Shown here: positions 37,109 to 45,578 of the stretch, in pieces
Layout of the letters: each line of letters opens with the position of its first letter
Position numbering within the stretch: position 1 is the first letter of the stretch
IMG/VR virus record: IMGVR_UViG_3300042542_001304
Location: 1 to 50,308 of that record
Strand: one strand, 5' to 3'
Length of the DNA stretch: 50,308 nt
Source of the DNA: a virus
Made by a program: the position numbers and the translations under genes
Notes under the pieces: model-generated
What the model saw: the letters and a program-made list of their open reading frames with translations, nothing else
Told to the model about the DNA's origin: nothing
Database searches by the model: none

Positions 37109-37507
37109 ATGGCATACTCAGATAAAGTTATAGACCACTATGAAAACCCACGCAATGTTGGTAAAATGGATATTGCTGATGTTAATGTTGGTACCGGTAT
37201 GGTTGGTGCACCAGCTTGTGGTGATGTAATGAAATTACAAATCCGAGTAGAGGATGGTATAATCAAAGATGCAAAATTTAAAACATATGGCTGTGGGTCG
37301 GCGATTGCAAGTAGCTCGCTCGTCACGGAGTGGGTCAAGGGTAAAACGTTGGACGAGGCTGCAACAATTAAGAATACTCAAATTGCAGAGGAACTCTCGC
37401 TCCCGCCAGTTAAGATTCATTGTTCGATCCTTGCGGAAGATGCTATTAAGGCAGCAATAAACAATTACAAAGGCAAACATGATAACAATCACTGCAAGTG
37501 CGATTAA
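37109..37507 (+). CDS. iscU: IscU-type Fe-S cluster scaffold
   Basis: A 132-residue protein with the whole IscU active site: C37 and D39 in GAPACGD, C62 in YGCGSAIASSS, H104 and C105 in KIHCSILAEDA. LPPVK (98-102) is the HscA-binding motif. These match E. coli IscU (C37, D39, C63, H105, C106) closely, so it is likely a working scaffold that receives sulfur from the host IscS. It overlaps the IscA-like gene by 29 bases. Confidence 0.93.
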   Translation: MAYSDKVIDHYENPRNVGKMDIADVNVGTGMVGAPACGDVMKLQIRVEDGIIKDAKFKTYGCGSAIASSSLVTEWVKGKTLDEAATIKNTQIAEELSLPPVKIHCSILAEDAIKAAINNYKGKHDNNHCKCD

Positions 37508-37802
37508 TAAAGTTCGTGATTTATTGGTAGAAGAAAAATTACCCAATGGCGCATTACGAATGTTTGTCAAAGGTGGTGGATGTTCTGGCTATCAATACGG
37601 ATTTACATTTGATGAAGAAATTACAGAAGATGATTTTGTAATTGAAAATGATAATATCAAGGTAATTGTTGATATGATATCATCTCAATATCTTCAAGGT
37701 GCAACACTAGACTATAAAGAAGAAAAGTTTAATTCACAATTTATGATTAGTAATCCAAATGCTAAATCTACTTGTGGATGTGGTTCTTCATTTAACGCTT
37801 AG
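37479..37802 (+). CDS. iscA: IscA-type Fe-S cluster carrier
   Basis: A 107-residue A-type carrier, the same length as E. coli IscA. The three conserved cysteines are all present at C35 (GGGCSGY), C99 and C101 (CGCGSSF). It would pass Fe-S clusters from the scaffold to target proteins. ErpA is an alternative name for the same fold. It follows the IscU-like gene in a coupled pair and ends convergently with the desaturase, overlapping it by 15 bases. Confidence 0.93.
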   Translation: MITITASAINKVRDLLVEEKLPNGALRMFVKGGGCSGYQYGFTFDEEITEDDFVIENDNIKVIVDMISSQYLQGATLDYKEEKFNSQFMISNPNAKSTCGCGSSFNA

Positions 37803-38495
37803 TTTAGCTAATCTGAATTTTTCTAATAGTTTGATATAGAACCAACCAATATCTATTTCAAACCATTTCCTACTAAGCTTGGCAGAACCAGCATCAGCAT
37901 GGTGATTATTATGAAGCTCTTCGCCACCAATAATAAGACCAATAGGGAAAATATTTCTAGATGATTCTTTTGTTTCGACATTTCTATATCCCCAATAGTG
38001 ACCAATTCCATTGATTACACCTGCGGCTAGTAATGGAATCCACAACATTTGAATACCCCAAATCAACAAACCCCACCAAGAAAAACAAAGTAAATTTATT
38101 AGTAATAACAAAGTAATTCCTAATCTACTGTGTTTGCTATATACATTTTTTTCCATCCAATCATCTGGTGTTCCTCTACCAAACGCATTGACCATTAGGG
38201 TATCTTTGCTGGCGGTGTTATATAAAAATGCTCCACCAAATAAAACTTTCCAAATACCAAATAATTGAGGTGAATGTGGATCACCTTTTTGGTCGGTCAT
38301 ACCATGGTGTTTACGATGAATGGCTACCCATTGTTTTGTAACCATGCCTGTGGTTAACCATAACCAAAAACGAAAAAAGTGATTTACTACTGGATGAAAT
38401 GTAACGCCTAGATGAGTTTGACTACGATGTAGATAAAGTGTTACTGCGATGATTGTTAGATGAGTTGTTACTAAAACATAAATTAGTTCGTTCAT
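37788..38495 (-). CDS. Membrane fatty acid desaturase
   Basis: A 235-residue protein on the minus strand with the three histidine boxes of acyl-CoA/acyl-lipid delta-9-type desaturases: HRSQTH (H23-H28), HRKHH (H60-H64) and HNNHH (H195-H199), plus H166 in NGIGHYWGYRN. Hydrophobic segments lie around residues 4-22, 37-53, 126-146 and 148-162. It would introduce a double bond into membrane acyl chains using host electron donors. Similar desaturases are known in cyanophages. Confidence 0.92.
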   Translation of the reverse strand: MNELIYVLVTTHLTIIAVTLYLHRSQTHLGVTFHPVVNHFFRFWLWLTTGMVTKQWVAIHRKHHGMTDQKGDPHSPQLFGIWKVLFGGAFLYNTASKDTLMVNAFGRGTPDDWMEKNVYSKHSRLGITLLLLINLLCFSWWGLLIWGIQMLWIPLLAAGVINGIGHYWGYRNVETKESSRNIFPIGLIIGGEELHNNHHADAGSAKLSRKWFEIDIGWFYIKLLEKFRLAKLSVK

Positions 38496-38736: not shown

Positions 38737-39213
38737 TTATTTTGCTAGTGGGTTATCCATTGCTTTTTGAATCTTGCTATCAATTTCTTTACGCAAAACA
38801 CGAATGTCTTGGTCAATTTCACGAGATAGTTGTTTATTATCACGCTCAACTTGTTCTACAATTTTTTCCAATTTACGAATATCATTTTTGATATCATTTT
38901 TAATATCACGAGTATAATCGTTTGTTTTGGATGATGTTTCTTCTACCATTATCAAACGCTTATCAAACTCAGATAAATCTGGTGCAACATATTTTTCAAT
39001 TTTAGTTTTCATATCTTGGTATGATTTGTATACTTCAAATGCACCATATAGAGCACCAAGTGTGGATGATACAATTGTAAACGCTATCATTAATTTGGCT
39101 GGAGTAAATTCATAACCACCGATACTGATAACTGTATCTTTACTGGCATATTTTTTAACTGCTGCTTCTGCTTCGTCAATTTTTTTATTGACATCTTTGA
39201 TTTCTGTTGACAT
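38737..39213 (-). CDS. Membrane-anchored coiled-coil protein
   Basis: A 158-residue minus-strand protein. A charged N-terminal helix (KKIDEAEAAVKKYASKD) is followed by one hydrophobic segment (FTPAKLMIAFTIVSSTLGALYG, ~residues 31-52), then a long charged coiled coil (residues ~85-150). The design of one membrane segment plus coiled coil could fit a holin- or spanin-like lysis protein or a membrane scaffold; not certain. Confidence 0.55.
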   Translation of the reverse strand: MSTEIKDVNKKIDEAEAAVKKYASKDTVISIGGYEFTPAKLMIAFTIVSSTLGALYGAFEVYKSYQDMKTKIEKYVAPDLSEFDKRLIMVEETSSKTNDYTRDIKNDIKNDIRKLEKIVEQVERDNKQLSREIDQDIRVLRKEIDSKIQKAMDNPLAK

Positions 39214-39214
39214 T

Positions 39215-41155
39215 TTATTTCCCTAATTCGTATTGTGATTGAACCATTTGATTATGTAATTGGTCAGTCGCACCAAACAACCTGCGACCAACTCTTGCAT
39301 TATCGATATTTTTTTGTCCACCATAAATGGCAAACGGTTTATAAAAAGAAACATCTTTCATCACGACACTATTATAAGCATCAAAAGATGGATTGAATCC
39401 CATAGCTGCAATAACTAAACCTTGTGTAGCTACTTGAGCATTTATTGATTTTGCTTCACCACTTTCTTTAACGGCTTCAGAACCTTTTGATATTGCTTCT
39501 TTTCTTGCCGCCTCAACTCTTGCCTGTTGCATTGTTTGCCTTGGTGTTGATGTTGCGGCAGTCGTTGTGGTGGAACTTGTAGTGGTTGATGAACTGCTTG
39601 AACTAGAAGAAGAACTAGAATCACTACTTGAACTTGAAGAAGATGTAGATTGTACCGATTCAACCGCTAGTGTGGTAATATTTTGTTGTAAAGATGATGT
39701 TGTTGTTAATTGAACAGCTGTAGCTGGTGCTGTTGGTGCAGTAGATGTGGATGTTGTTGTGATTGTTTGATTAACAACAGGATCCGAAACTAATTGTGGT
39801 GTGGCACTAGATGTTGAACTTGTGGTTGTAGTAGTCGTGGTGGTTGTTGAAGAAGCTACTGTCACAACATAACCAGGACAAGTAGGACTAGATTGTGAAT
39901 TTGCACGACAAGCTTGTGCAGTTAAGTATGCTTGATAAGCAGCTGCATAACCAGGACATTGAGGACTATACAATGTATTCAGACTACACTGCTGATTAAA
40001 ATATGCCTGTTGATAACCAGGACAACCAGAGTTATATAAAGGATTTGCGGTACATTGTTGTGCAAAATAAGCCGTTTGATATCCTGGACAAGATGTTGAA
40101 TACAATGAATTTAATGAGCATTGTAAATTAAAATTTGCTTGTTCGTATCCAGGACAGTTAGGACTATACAATGCACTTAATGAACATTGTTGATTAAAGT
40201 ATGCCTGTTGATAACCAGGACAAGAAGTTGAATGCAATGGATTTGCGGTACATTGTTGACTTAGATATGCTTGTTCATATCCAGGACATTGTTGATTATA
40301 TAAAGAACTAATACTACATTGTTGATTAAAGTATGCCTGTTGATAACCAGGACACGATGGGTCATACAAAGCACTTATAGAGCATTGTTGAGTTCTGTAT
40401 GCTTCTGTGTAACCAGGACAAGATGAATTGTATAGTGGATTGATTGTGCATTGGTCAACACTTTGACCTGTTCCACCTAAAGCTTGCCAGCTAAAAATAG
40501 AAGAGCCGCCTGGTGTAATGTTTAATCCTTGTCCGTGATAATGTTGGTAGTATTCACCTTTACTTAAATCACCGGAAAATCCTGATGTAACATTGTTCCA
40601 AGAAACCATTGCACCAGCAATCCGAGTATCAATTAAACCTGTCGAATCGATTTTAATTTCAAAACTGTTACCGCCTTGTGAAGAACAACATTGACTTAAA
40701 TTATACCAACCATAAGTCATTGAGTTACCTTCACGGAGATAATATTGTTGTTGATTATTCCAAGAATATAAATCAGTATGTAATCCATAGATTGTGTAGT
40801 TATATCGTGGATCGGTTGTATTTCTTAAATCAATTCCAGAACAACAACCTCCACCTAAACCAGACGTTTGTGGGTCCCGGAATGTAACATAACCATTTGT
40901 TGCTGCCCATGATGTAGTGAAGTTTTGACCATACATGGGAAATGTAAAACCTAGCGGTACTTCATTATACCAATCGTCCCATGTTGTAATGTTTACAGCA
41001 TTTGGATTATTTTTAATATCTTGCAAAGGTAAAGCATTAACTCCTGTACCAACAGTTATAGAAAGTCCTGGAGTTCCAGGTATTGGAACAGTAACAATTT
41101 GAGCATAAGAAAAAGACGATACTACAAATAGTAGTGCCGCTAATAATTTTCTCAT
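39215..41155 (-). CDS. Secreted cysteine-repeat adhesin-like protein
   Basis: A 646-residue minus-strand protein. Signal peptide MRKLLAALLFVVSSFSYA (cut after Ala18); residues ~60-230 form a beta-rich, possibly NIDO-like domain (GFTFPMYGQNF, YGLHTDLYSW). Residues 236-429 carry eight Cys repeats of mostly 22 residues (pattern C-x-x-x-x-L-Y-x-x-x-C-P-G-Y-x-x-A-Y) plus a degenerate ninth. A Ser/Thr-rich linker follows to ~540, then a helical C-terminal region. Export is expected; function unknown. Confidence 0.7.
   Translation of the reverse strand: MRKLLAALLFVVSSFSYAQIVTVPIPGTPGLSITVGTGVNALPLQDIKNNPNAVNITTWDDWYNEVPLGFTFPMYGQNFTTSWAATNGYVTFRDPQTSGLGGGCCSGIDLRNTTDPRYNYTIYGLHTDLYSWNNQQQYYLREGNSMTYGWYNLSQCCSSQGGNSFEIKIDSTGLIDTRIAGAMVSWNNVTSGFSGDLSKGEYYQHYHGQGLNITPGGSSIFSWQALGGTGQSVDQCTINPLYNSSCPGYTEAYRTQQCSISALYDPSCPGYQQAYFNQQCSISSLYNQQCPGYEQAYLSQQCTANPLHSTSCPGYQQAYFNQQCSLSALYSPNCPGYEQANFNLQCSLNSLYSTSCPGYQTAYFAQQCTANPLYNSGCPGYQQAYFNQQCSLNTLYSPQCPGYAAAYQAYLTAQACRANSQSSPTCPGYVVTVASSTTTTTTTTTSSTSSATPQLVSDPVVNQTITTTSTSTAPTAPATAVQLTTTSSLQQNITTLAVESVQSTSSSSSSSDSSSSSSSSSSSTTTSSTTTTAATSTPRQTMQQARVEAARKEAISKGSEAVKESGEAKSINAQVATQGLVIAAMGFNPSFDAYNSVVMKDVSFYKPFAIYGGQKNIDNARVGRRLFGATDQLHNQMVQSQYELGK
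39869..40450 (-). repeat. Tandem 66-bp coding repeats
   Basis: The DNA repeats with a 66-bp period (22 codons): seven copies of 22 residues, one of 26 and one partial. Each encodes C-x9-CPGY-x-x-AY-x-x-QQ with variable spacer residues. They lie wholly inside the secreted protein gene and keep its frame. Confidence 0.85.
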
Positions 41156-41631
41156 TAGTCTTTACTCTTAATTTTCTGTGGTTTGCGTTCTGGATCGGAT
41201 TCCCAAATTACTTTTGCTTCATTACCAATTTTACCATCAACTGGACATGGAGTACCAGCATTCATCATAGCAGTAAATACTCGTTCATCTTGGCAAAGAG
41301 TAGCAACAGCGGCCACTTTCATGCCCATGTCGTGGAGAGTTTTAGAAAGTTTTAATCGTTCACAGTTTTTATCTACAAAAGTGGATCCAATAGCGATACC
41401 AAGAATTTGAGTCTGAGCTGCACCAGAAACACCTACGGCACAAAGGTCATTATTAATAGATGTAATGTTTGGTGCTACAGCAGTTGGTGGTGGAGATTTA
41501 ACTGTTGTGGTACTATTGGATGTGGAATCGTTGGTACTTCTGGTTGTGGAATCTGTAACGATAGGGTCCGCAAATACATTGCCAACAAATAACATTGCTG
41601 TTATAATTGGAATTACTTTACTTTTAAACAT
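41155..41631 (-). CDS. Secreted Cys-containing protein
   Basis: A 158-residue minus-strand protein. Signal peptide MFKSKVIPIITAMLFVGNVFA (about 21 residues), a Ser/Thr-rich segment, then KNCERLKLSKTLHDMGMKVAAVATLCQDERVF and NAGTPCPVDG with several cysteines. It is cotranscribed with, and directly upstream of, the repeat protein (one-base overlap), so the two may work together outside the cytoplasm. Similar small secreted proteins occur in other aquatic T4-like phages. Function unknown. Confidence 0.6.
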   Translation of the reverse strand: MFKSKVIPIITAMLFVGNVFADPIVTDSTTRSTNDSTSNSTTTVKSPPPTAVAPNITSINNDLCAVGVSGAAQTQILGIAIGSTFVDKNCERLKLSKTLHDMGMKVAAVATLCQDERVFTAMMNAGTPCPVDGKIGNEAKVIWESDPERKPQKIKSKD

Positions 41632-41758: not shown

Positions 41759-41766
41759 TATTTATA
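41759..41766 (-). promoter_or_regulatory. Consensus late promoter (minus strand) for the secreted block
   Basis: On the minus strand this reads TATAAATA, a perfect T4 late octamer, 128 bases before the ATG at 41631. It overlaps the leader of the plus-strand early unit, giving divergent early and late transcription from one region. Confidence 0.65.
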
Positions 41767-42123: not shown

Positions 42124-44661
42124 TTGAGTTCATTCTATACAAATGTTCAGAGTATCGGTGGTAACATACTCTATCGTGGCATTCAAAACGGCAAAAAGAT
42201 AAAGACAAAGGTCGAGTATTCTCCATCTTTGTTTTTGCCATCCAAAAAAATCACCAACTTTACAAATTTAGAGGGTGATTATCTTGACGAAAAGAGGTTC
42301 GCCAATATCAAAGCAGCCAGAGATTATATCAAACAATTTGATGGTGTGTCTGGTGCCTCTATGATTTATGGCCAAACTCGTTTTGAATATGCTTTCATTG
42401 CTGACCAACATAAAGGTATGGTCGACTATGATTATGACAAAATAACAATCGCCATTATAGACATTGAGGTTGGTTCGGAGAATGGCTTTCCCGATCCATA
42501 CCAAGCAAACGAACCTATTACTGCAATCGCAATTCGACAACTGAATGGCGGTATTACGGTTTACGGATGTGGTGAGTATCAAGTTCAAGGCGAAGAAATC
42601 TATATTCGTTGTAAAGATGAATACAATCTTTGCAAAACATTTTTAAATCACTTCAAAGATAATTATCCAGATATCATTACTGGTTGGAATACAAAGTTCT
42701 TTGATATACCATATCTCATTAATCGTTTCAGAAAGATTCTTGGTGATGATGAATCCAAAAAACTATCACCATGGAATTTTATTACTGAGAGAAATGCCTA
42801 TGTCAATAATCGCCAGTTGATTGATTATACACTAGTGGGCATCTCATCGCTTGATTATATTGAACTATACAAATGGTATGCTCCTGGCGGTAAGTCACAA
42901 GAATCATATCGTCTGGATAATATTGCACAAGTTGAACTTGGTGAAGGCAAGATTGCATATGATGAATATGATAACCTTCATGCTCTATATCGTTTGAACT
43001 ATCAAAAGTTTATTGAGTATAATATTAAAGACGTTGATTTGATTCTTAAACTAGAAGATAAACTAAAACTTCTTGAGTTGGCTGTAACTCTAGGCTATGA
43101 TACCAAATCAAACTTTGAAGATGTGTTTGCACAAACTCGTATGTGGGACGCACTGACACATTCTTATCTGCGTGATAAAGATATTATTGTTCCACCACGA
43201 ATCGTCAAAGAAAAAGATTCAGCATTTGAAGGTGCATATGTTAAAGATCCACAAGTTGGTTTACATGATTGGGTGGCATCATTTGACTTGAACAGTTTGT
43301 ATCCACATTTGATGATGCAATATAATATTTCACCAGAAACTTTAATTGAACCTGAAAATTATACAGATGCAATGCGTGAGGTTCTTTCACAAGGTGTATC
43401 TGTTGAGAAATTATTGTATAAAAAAATTGATACTTCAAATTTGAAAGGTGTGACAATCACGCCTAACGGACAATTTTTTCGCACAGACTTCCAAGGTTTC
43501 TTACCTAAAATGATGGAAGAAATGTATACAGATAGAAGTAAGTTTAAGAAGTTGATGTTACAAGCAAAACAAGAATATGAAAATGAAAAAGATTCAAACA
43601 AACTCTATGAAATCGAAAAACGAATTGCCAAATACAACAACATTCAACTTGCAAAAAAAGTTTCCCTTAATTCTGCTTACGGTGCTCTCGGTAGTCAATA
43701 TTTTCGTTTTTATGACCTTCGTATGGCCCTTGGTGTTACTACTGCTGGCCAGTTAAGTATTCGTTGGATTGAAAATAAAATTAATGATTACATGAACAAA
43801 CTACTGGAAACAGATAGTAAAGATTATGTGATTGCTTCTGATACAGATTCAATCTATCTCCGCATGGGTGAATTGGTTAACAAATTTATCAAAGATACAT
43901 CAGACAAACAAAAAGTAATTTCTCTTATGGATAAAATCTGTGAAGATAAACTTCAACCATACATTGATAAGTGTTATGGTGAACTTGGAAATTATGTTCA
44001 TGCCTATCAACAAAAAATGGAGATGAAACGAGAAGGTCTATCCAACAAAGGCATCTGGACTGCCAAGAAACGATACATTCTGAATGTGTATAATAATGAA
44101 GGTGTTCAATATAAAGAACCACAGATGAAAGTCATGGGTCTTGAAATGATTAAATCATCGACACCATCTGCCATCCGTGAGAGAATGAAAGAAGCCATTC
44201 AGTTAATGGTAAATGGTACACAAGAAGATGTATATAAATTTATTGAAGATTTTAGAAAAGAATTCAAAACATTACCTGTAGAAGAAATCTCTTTTCCTCG
44301 TGGCCTTAATGGCCTAAATACCTATTCCGATGCATCAACATTGTATAAGAAAGGCACACCAATTCATGTCAAAGGTGCCATTCTTTATAATCACAATCTG
44401 AAACAAAAGAATCTAACCAAGAAATATCAACTCATTCAAGAAGGTGAAAAGGTTAAGTTTACTTACCTAAAGATGCCTAATCCATTTAAAGATACAGTCA
44501 TTTCGTATCCATCTCGTTTACCAAAAGAATTCGAATTGCAAGAGTATATTGATTATGATATGCAATTTGATAAGGCATTCTTAGAACCAATTAAAGTTAT
44601 TCTGGATTGTATGGGCTGGAAAACAGAAAAAACAAGTTCAATAGAGGATTTCTTCTCATGA
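42124..44661 (+). CDS. gp43: DNA polymerase gp43 (family B)
   Basis: An 845-residue replicative polymerase. Exonuclease motifs: DIEVGS (D113, E115), GWNTKFFDIPYL and YNIKDVDLI; polymerase motifs: FDLNSLYPHL (~386-395), KVSLNSAYGALGS, and SDTDSIY (~571). The start is a TTG at 42124, which aligns SSFYTNVQSIGGNIL with T4 KEFYISIETVGNNIV; no ATG fits. The C-terminus SIEDFFS is a likely clamp-binding tail. It overlaps the next gene by 4 bases. Confidence 0.97.
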   Translation: MSSFYTNVQSIGGNILYRGIQNGKKIKTKVEYSPSLFLPSKKITNFTNLEGDYLDEKRFANIKAARDYIKQFDGVSGASMIYGQTRFEYAFIADQHKGMVDYDYDKITIAIIDIEVGSENGFPDPYQANEPITAIAIRQLNGGITVYGCGEYQVQGEEIYIRCKDEYNLCKTFLNHFKDNYPDIITGWNTKFFDIPYLINRFRKILGDDESKKLSPWNFITERNAYVNNRQLIDYTLVGISSLDYIELYKWYAPGGKSQESYRLDNIAQVELGEGKIAYDEYDNLHALYRLNYQKFIEYNIKDVDLILKLEDKLKLLELAVTLGYDTKSNFEDVFAQTRMWDALTHSYLRDKDIIVPPRIVKEKDSAFEGAYVKDPQVGLHDWVASFDLNSLYPHLMMQYNISPETLIEPENYTDAMREVLSQGVSVEKLLYKKIDTSNLKGVTITPNGQFFRTDFQGFLPKMMEEMYTDRSKFKKLMLQAKQEYENEKDSNKLYEIEKRIAKYNNIQLAKKVSLNSAYGALGSQYFRFYDLRMALGVTTAGQLSIRWIENKINDYMNKLLETDSKDYVIASDTDSIYLRMGELVNKFIKDTSDKQKVISLMDKICEDKLQPYIDKCYGELGNYVHAYQQKMEMKREGLSNKGIWTAKKRYILNVYNNEGVQYKEPQMKVMGLEMIKSSTPSAIRERMKEAIQLMVNGTQEDVYKFIEDFRKEFKTLPVEEISFPRGLNGLNTYSDASTLYKKGTPIHVKGAILYNHNLKQKNLTKKYQLIQEGEKVKFTYLKMPNPFKDTVISYPSRLPKEFELQEYIDYDMQFDKAFLEPIKVILDCMGWKTEKTSSIEDFFS

Positions 44662-45578
44662 TACTAATCATATTAACATTCTTAGCGGCATTCTTATTAT
44701 CTGGTACTGCTGCTTATTATTCAGTTATTGGTCTTGCACTCATATTCTCTGGCGCATTTTGGCCAGTTGTTATTATGGGTTCAACACTTGAATTTGCCAA
44801 ATTAATTACTGCATCATGGCTATATAATAATTGGCAGAAAACTAATATTTTATTGAAGTCATACTTGACGGCTGCCGTTGTCATCTTAATGTTTATTACT
44901 TCAATGGGTATTTTTGGTTTCTTGGCCAAATCACATATTGATTCTACATTAGATGCTGGTGCAAATACTGCCGAACTCAAAACACTCAATTCACAACAGA
45001 AGATTGCCGAACAACGACTAGAATATTTACTCAAGCGTGCCGGTAATCCTGAAACTGCTTCTGTTCAAATTGATAGACAGATTCAAACAACACAAAAAGA
45101 ATTGGCCGAAATCAACAAGAAAAAGTTACCACTTCTTAAAGAAGAAAATAAATTAGTGGCAGATGTTGGTCCAATCAAATATGTGGCAGACATATTCTTT
45201 GGTAGTGGTGACGGTGCCTTAGATAAGGCTGTAAGACTGGTAATCTTCATGATTATGCTTGTATTTGACCCTCTAGCTGTGTTATTATTGATAGCAGGAA
45301 ACATATCTTACAAGGAAAAATATGGAAGCAAGAGTTCACTTCCCATTTCGGTACCTAGGCCTACTAAGCAGAGGCGAAAAACAGTTTCGCCAGTTAAAGA
45401 ATCGCCGAGTAATACGGTTGAAATCCCCAAAGAGAACTTGGTTGCAATCGAGGAGGATGAGGCACCTAAAAATAAAAAGAAGGGCTTTCCGAGGCGTGAG
45501 GCGGATCGCATAAGTAAATATGATGAGAAAGCAGAACTTGCTTTTAAAGAAAAAAGATTAGATGGTGGTGACTTTTAA
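44658..45578 (+). CDS. Multispanning membrane protein with coiled coil
   Basis: A 306-residue protein; the start is ATG 44658, overlapping the gp43 stop (ATGA). Hydrophobic segments: residues ~1-20, 22-45, 68-92 and 190-212. Between the third and fourth segments lies a coiled coil (QQKIAEQRLEYLLKRAGN). After the last segment comes a Lys/Arg-rich tail. Similar membrane proteins sit near gp43 in aquatic T4-like phages. Function unknown; possibly a membrane anchor for phage replication or a host-takeover factor. Confidence 0.65.
   Translation: MILIILTFLAAFLLSGTAAYYSVIGLALIFSGAFWPVVIMGSTLEFAKLITASWLYNNWQKTNILLKSYLTAAVVILMFITSMGIFGFLAKSHIDSTLDAGANTAELKTLNSQQKIAEQRLEYLLKRAGNPETASVQIDRQIQTTQKELAEINKKKLPLLKEENKLVADVGPIKYVADIFFGSGDGALDKAVRLVIFMIMLVFDPLAVLLLIAGNISYKEKYGSKSSLPISVPRPTKQRRKTVSPVKESPSNTVEIPKENLVAIEEDEAPKNKKKGFPRREADRISKYDEKAELAFKEKRLDGGDF

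Follow-up and report, generated by a model that had tools for sequence, protein, structure and literature searches.

The described phage systems that come closest to the locus reported here are the two-component spanins, of which lambda Rz/Rz1 is an example, and the curli (type VIII secretion) module of pelagiphages and OM43 phages (PMC7029224, PMC9599517, PMC9004378). A survey of phages that infect Gram-negative bacteria recognised no spanin in 91 (13%) of its 677 genomes, with many marine cyanophages and marine T4-like phages among the spanin-less, and left other outer-membrane routes open, including membrane proteins of other topology (PMC6139136). Here we describe a three-gene module, A-B-C, for which we found no description in the literature. 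It resembles two-component spanins in that its genes are late, overlap or abut, and lie beside a holin or endolysin in part of the phages, and in that an inner-membrane coiled-coil protein (predicted for C) accompanies exported partners (predicted for A and B) in what we propose to be a long, periplasm-spanning build; it has three genes, however, where those spanins have two. With phage curli it shares the character of an exported envelope module found in the same kinds of phages and in more than one phage family, but it differs in its helical Cys repeats and in having an inner-membrane protein of its own (both predicted).

The window, which is the whole 50,308-base IMG/VR virus record that we analysed, is a fragment of a T4-like phage; it encodes a gp43-like polymerase (about 50% to cyanophages), UvsX, a gp45-like clamp, a gp55-like late sigma factor and a tail tube protein. 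A, B and C are three abutting minus-strand genes that run opposite to the flanking polymerase and isc genes. The original prediction had called A and B at their correct coordinates and described them rightly as two exported partners in one unit behind a late promoter, but it had missed the third gene, C, which starts one base after the B stop. The features are as follows (window positions):

41759-41766, minus strand: T4-type late promoter TATAAATA, an exact match, 135 nt upstream of A
41155-41631, minus strand: gene A, small exported protein, 158 aa
41569-41631, minus strand: signal peptide of A, MFKSKVIPIITAMLFVGNVFA, aa 1-21, at a homologous position in 92/92 non-redundant homologues
39215-41155, minus strand: gene B, exported modular protein, 646 aa, whose start overlaps the A stop (TAATG)
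41102-41155, minus strand: signal peptide of B, MRKLLAALLFVVSSFSYA, from the signal scan
40463-41098, minus strand: N-terminal tip domain of B, aa 20-231, a beta-sandwich in the model
39845-40450, minus strand: nine Cys units of B, aa 236-437
39551-39844, minus strand: Ser/Thr-rich disordered linker of B, aa 438-535, pLDDT about 30
39218-39550, minus strand: conserved helical C-terminal region of B, aa 536-646
38737-39213, minus strand: gene C, predicted membrane-anchored coiled-coil protein, 158 aa, ending AMDNPLAK

Signal peptides were called with a home-made scan for n-, h- and c-regions and an AXA motif, which found the signals that had been proposed for both proteins and showed them to be conserved in homologues (strong h-region in 89/92 and cleavage motif in 92/92 for A; 84/90 strong and cleavage motif in 89/90 for B). 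The same scan found a lipobox in none of the 92 A homologues and lipobox-like matches in only 7 of 90 B homologues, the B signals fitting type I cleavage. Annotated starts seem to remove the signal peptide in two cultured-phage homologues, HTVC115P gp53 (L144:9476-10876) and HTVC202P gp25 (L146:8038-9336), and the former begins VSPSKAE, resembling the end of a signal peptide.

Behind its signal, A consists of a Ser/Thr/Pro-rich stretch (aa 22-57) and a core (aa 58-150) whose four conserved Cys stand at 64, 90, 113 and 129, and this core is conserved from the relatives of the window to cultured pelagiphages and, more distantly, roseophages. A matches phrog_20531 (E 1.6e-16), a family that contains the four-Cys core and is unannotated, with no functional hint; modelled alone, A gave a low-confidence structure (pLDDT 62) and no fold match. 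We also considered a host origin for A, and set it aside: the matches of the genome scan are confined to metagenome and single-cell assemblies, in which the contigs may be of phage origin.

The modular build of B was assessed on an AlphaFold2 model (monomer, 35-sequence alignment, no templates), in which the tip has a pLDDT mostly of 80-93 from aa 41 to 210, and each Cys unit forms one helix and a loop (pLDDT mostly 80-90). Eight 22-residue Cys repeats had been predicted, and the C-x9-CPGY units indeed start at aa 236, 258, 280, 302, 324, 346, 368 and 390, exactly 22 apart, with a ninth, degenerate unit at aa 416; the 22-residue period recurs in nearly all B homologues. The predicted Ser/Thr linker is likewise present, following the repeats. 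The C-terminal helices are of low confidence in the model, and the region carries a conserved box (S/T-D-x-x-H-x-x-M-V-x-x-Q-Y) and is common to gp53 of the cultured SAR11 phage HTVC115P (hhalign 96.9%, E 1.7e-10). In marine B proteins of the HTVC023P/Mosig type the linker is rich in Glu, Pro and Lys, and the C-terminus aligns only weakly with that of the window (probability 19%), so that homology in this part is at most tentative; these proteins are placed by gene order and by their A and C neighbours.

B matched nothing in 50,697 named phage records, and its sequence gave only chance matches to solved structures. The original prediction had taken the tip for a NIDO-like domain, for which we find no sequence support: neither the window B nor about 35 homologues matched any Pfam profile, NIDO included (E <= 0.1), and the model gave no clear structural match (Foldseek, none in the PDB with E below 0.001; VIA, best Z 4.7), which leaves a relation at the level of the fold possible. 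In BFVD, six viral proteins match B (E <= 0.001); they include proteins of uncultured phages and one from Synechococcus phage S-SRM01, and none has a named function. Tips of two marine B homologues match CBM_4_9 (PF02018) weakly (E 0.009 and 0.02, below the curated cut-off), whereas the window has a tip of the other class, without a match; in the deposited records, HTVC033P gp45 and the MedDCM B are named putative carbohydrate-binding proteins.

Among 85 homologues the B tips fall into two classes with no detectable similarity to one another (39 window-like, 46 other), and some homologues have an apparent second tip domain between the repeats. Tip class differs between phages whose C proteins are 93-98% identical (L089 or L142 vs. 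the window, L002, L003 and L012), which indicates exchange of the tip with its neighbours left in place.

In C, a single TM-like segment (about aa 41-59, mean KD 1.71) precedes a long stretch of coiled-coil character, and the C-terminal NPL is present in 83/83 homologues; by the positive-inside rule, the charges that flank the segment are ambiguous on topology in the window type. The C profile aligns with pelagiphage C (85%, E 6.6e-6) and with CRP-207 gp73 (91%, E 1.1e-6). Two proteins named lysozyme, CRP-207 gp73 (L180:3292-3873) and CRP-810 gp51 (L148:9219-9641), were considered as lysis neighbours of the module and rejected, as they have no Pfam lysozyme match and are themselves C homologues with a GGY/GGF motif, a TM segment, a coiled coil and the C-terminal NPL. 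In several phages (L014, L023, L027, L031, L035 and others) C is present as a tandem duplicate.

The unit had been thought rare in tailed phages; while B is indeed unmatched among named records, A-B-C proved widespread in aquatic viral contigs and cultured pelagiphages. Homologues of B lie at 70 viral loci and those of A at 154 (80 kept). The cultured SAR11 phages Mosig, HTVC115P, HTVC023P, HTVC033P, HTVC202P and Baldr have homologues, and the order A-B-C on one strand holds in nearly all of about 100 viral loci with enough sequence (identity 46-97% for A, 28-90% for B and 34-98% for C). In nine pairwise comparisons dN/dS of A, B and C was 0.02-0.26 (0.60 for B against the tip-swapped L089), and these low values mark them as real, selected genes. 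Since the octamer TATAAATA is at chance level across the window (6 seen vs. 5.7 expected), the evidence for a late promoter is its conserved position: in 30/101 non-identical loci it occurs in the 250 nt that precede A, where octamer density predicts about 1, and in antisense it occurs there in 0/101. The call is also backed by the late sigma factor (gp55-like) and the clamp (gp45-like) that the window encodes.

In unrelated phages the module adjoins lysis genes, among them endolysins of four enzyme families and holin-like genes (A-B-C-holin-like-GH24 lysozyme in L034, L036 and L061; A-B-C-TM-GTA_holin_3TM-M15 in L055; GH19-DUF4337-A-B-C-GTA_holin in L083; A-B-C-C'-DUF4337-GTA_holin in L031; A-B-x-C-M15 in HTVC023P; Amidase_2-TM protein-x-x-A-B-C in HTVC033P; and GTA_holin-A-B-C in Mosig). 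An S11 D,D-carboxypeptidase that appears to be exported lies downstream in 8 loci (e.g. L118:10296-11048), and a DUF4337 membrane protein lies near the module in 12. An endolysin was identified in 13 records of 30 kb or more, and in 5 of these it lies no farther than 1.3 kb from the module (0.72 expected, P about 4e-4), and a GTA holin is as close in 3 of 7 records (0.22 expected, P about 1e-3); the cut-off was chosen after inspection of the data, the records are partly dependent and some positions are approximate, so that these P values serve as guides. The endolysin is 11-123 kb off in HTVC115P, HTVC202P, Baldr, MedDCM-S28-C10 and four large contigs, a distance to be expected, as lysis genes are unclustered in T4-like genomes (PMC6139136).

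A six-frame lipoprotein scan that recovers lambda Rz1 and Bor found no credible candidate in five module-bearing genomes, the frames it returned being implausible (0 in HTVC202P, 2 each in Baldr, HTVC023P and HTVC033P, 1 in the Manatee Spring podovirus), and these genomes therefore hold no candidate o- or u-spanin. A-B-C itself is not filed as a spanin, because A and B carry type I signals in place of the lipobox of an o-spanin and C has no sequence relation to Rz (C profile vs. lambda Rz, probability 0.1%, Rz alone being compared out of many spanin families); B, at 400-900 aa with tip, repeats and linker, differs from spanins as well.

We reasoned that an exported pair with a coiled-coil anchor that is late, apparently periplasm-spanning, enriched beside holins and endolysins, and found in phages lacking recognisable spanins would most likely serve the outer-membrane step of lysis, as a late envelope-spanning complex that is spanin-like in action without being a spanin, although we would put this reading a little short of probable. 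C would be the inner-membrane anchor that carries the coiled coil; B, exported by Sec, would dock through its C-terminal helical region with C and/or A near the inner membrane, while its helical repeats, presumably disulphide-braced, and its flexible Ser/Thr (or Glu/Pro) linker would reach across the periplasm; the exchangeable beta-sandwich at its N-terminus may grip a wall or outer-membrane glycan; and A would be a small disulphide-rich exported partner. After holin and endolysin had acted, the complex would break or uncouple the outer membrane. That A and B are exported, late and under purifying selection counts for the lytic reading, as do the five genomes without a candidate o- or u-spanin. 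Against it count the distant endolysin in many module phages, the non-lysis neighbours in the window itself (a desaturase and the DNA polymerase, with no adjacent holin or endolysin), the lack of Rz homology and the ambiguous TM-flanking charges of C, and the exchange of tips, for which a target on the host surface or in immunity would be the simpler explanation. It is conceivable, if somewhat doubtful, that the module is an undescribed three-component system by which aquatic phages without spanins, those of SAR11 included, disrupt the outer membrane: a stalk that spans the periplasm, is tethered at the inner membrane and bears an exchangeable tip that grips a glycan. The cultured relatives infect SAR11, and a conserved three-gene candidate in cultured pelagiphages makes the outer-membrane breach by spanin-less phages directly testable. 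With A-B-C, phages of the most abundant aquatic bacteria would have a second exported module in addition to curli.

The original prediction had named a changed host surface, a block to superinfection or an adhesive structure as roles for A and B; these are possible, and tip swapping fits them, but the linkage to holin, endolysin and D,D-carboxypeptidase together with gene C points rather to a lytic or outer-membrane step, which it had not named. Superinfection exclusion is the main rival; here A-B-C would alter the envelope or surface of the infected cell, and the tip would block or mask a receptor glycan and be swapped as receptors differ. It has its best argument in the two unrelated tip classes exchanged while C stays 93-98% identical; A and B are exported and late, and a gene beside the lysis cassette of another phage may be a surface moron, as lambda bor is beside Rz. 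We nevertheless consider exclusion unlikely: late expression comes late for such a task, the linkage to holin, endolysin and D,D-carboxypeptidase exceeds chance, no outer-membrane translocation partner was found, and strict conservation of three genes across phage families would be unusual for a moron.

A repeat stalk with a possibly lectin-like tip could also be read as an adhesin or fibre, an extracellular B that sticks cells or released virions together as an alternative to phage curli. CsgG (PF03783) is absent from all 21 module-bearing records and was found in 4 control genomes, the A profile found no A in the csgG-bearing HTVC008M, and no csgG-bearing Melnitz record is among the tblastn matches listed for A. 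As far as observed, csgG and A-B-C do not occur together in one phage and may be functional alternatives, although this exclusivity rests on few independent lineages. Such an adhesin seems improbable to us, as the repeats are helical in the model and not amyloid-like and no secretion route through the outer membrane was found; identity of the module with curli itself was rejected because the CsgG pore is missing and because Pfam matched no curlin repeat in the window B or in any of 34 homologues. Least likely, and to our minds very improbable, is that A and B are virion decoration or tail fibres with signal-like N-termini by chance, as the late promoter and the position of the unit after tail-fibre-like genes in podovirus-type loci (L034/L036) might suggest, given that both proteins keep cleavable signals in almost all of their 90+ diverged homologues, that virions assemble in the cytoplasm, that the third gene product is predicted to be membrane-anchored, and that nothing in the sequences appears to tie A or B to the tail.

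Beside the module, the window encodes a fatty-acid desaturase (PF00487) and, adjoining it, overlapping iscU- and iscA-like genes (37109-38495); these are possible auxiliary metabolic genes, and many relatives have them close to the module in one orientation or the other. A desaturase beside the unit, with curli genes absent, recalls the putative Fonsibacter myophages of PMC7029224, and we mention this as a lead only. Positions 44607-45578 encode a multi-TM protein with a weak Tetraspanin match (E 8e-4, below cut-off), which about half of the related loci also have close to the module, frequently directly upstream of A.
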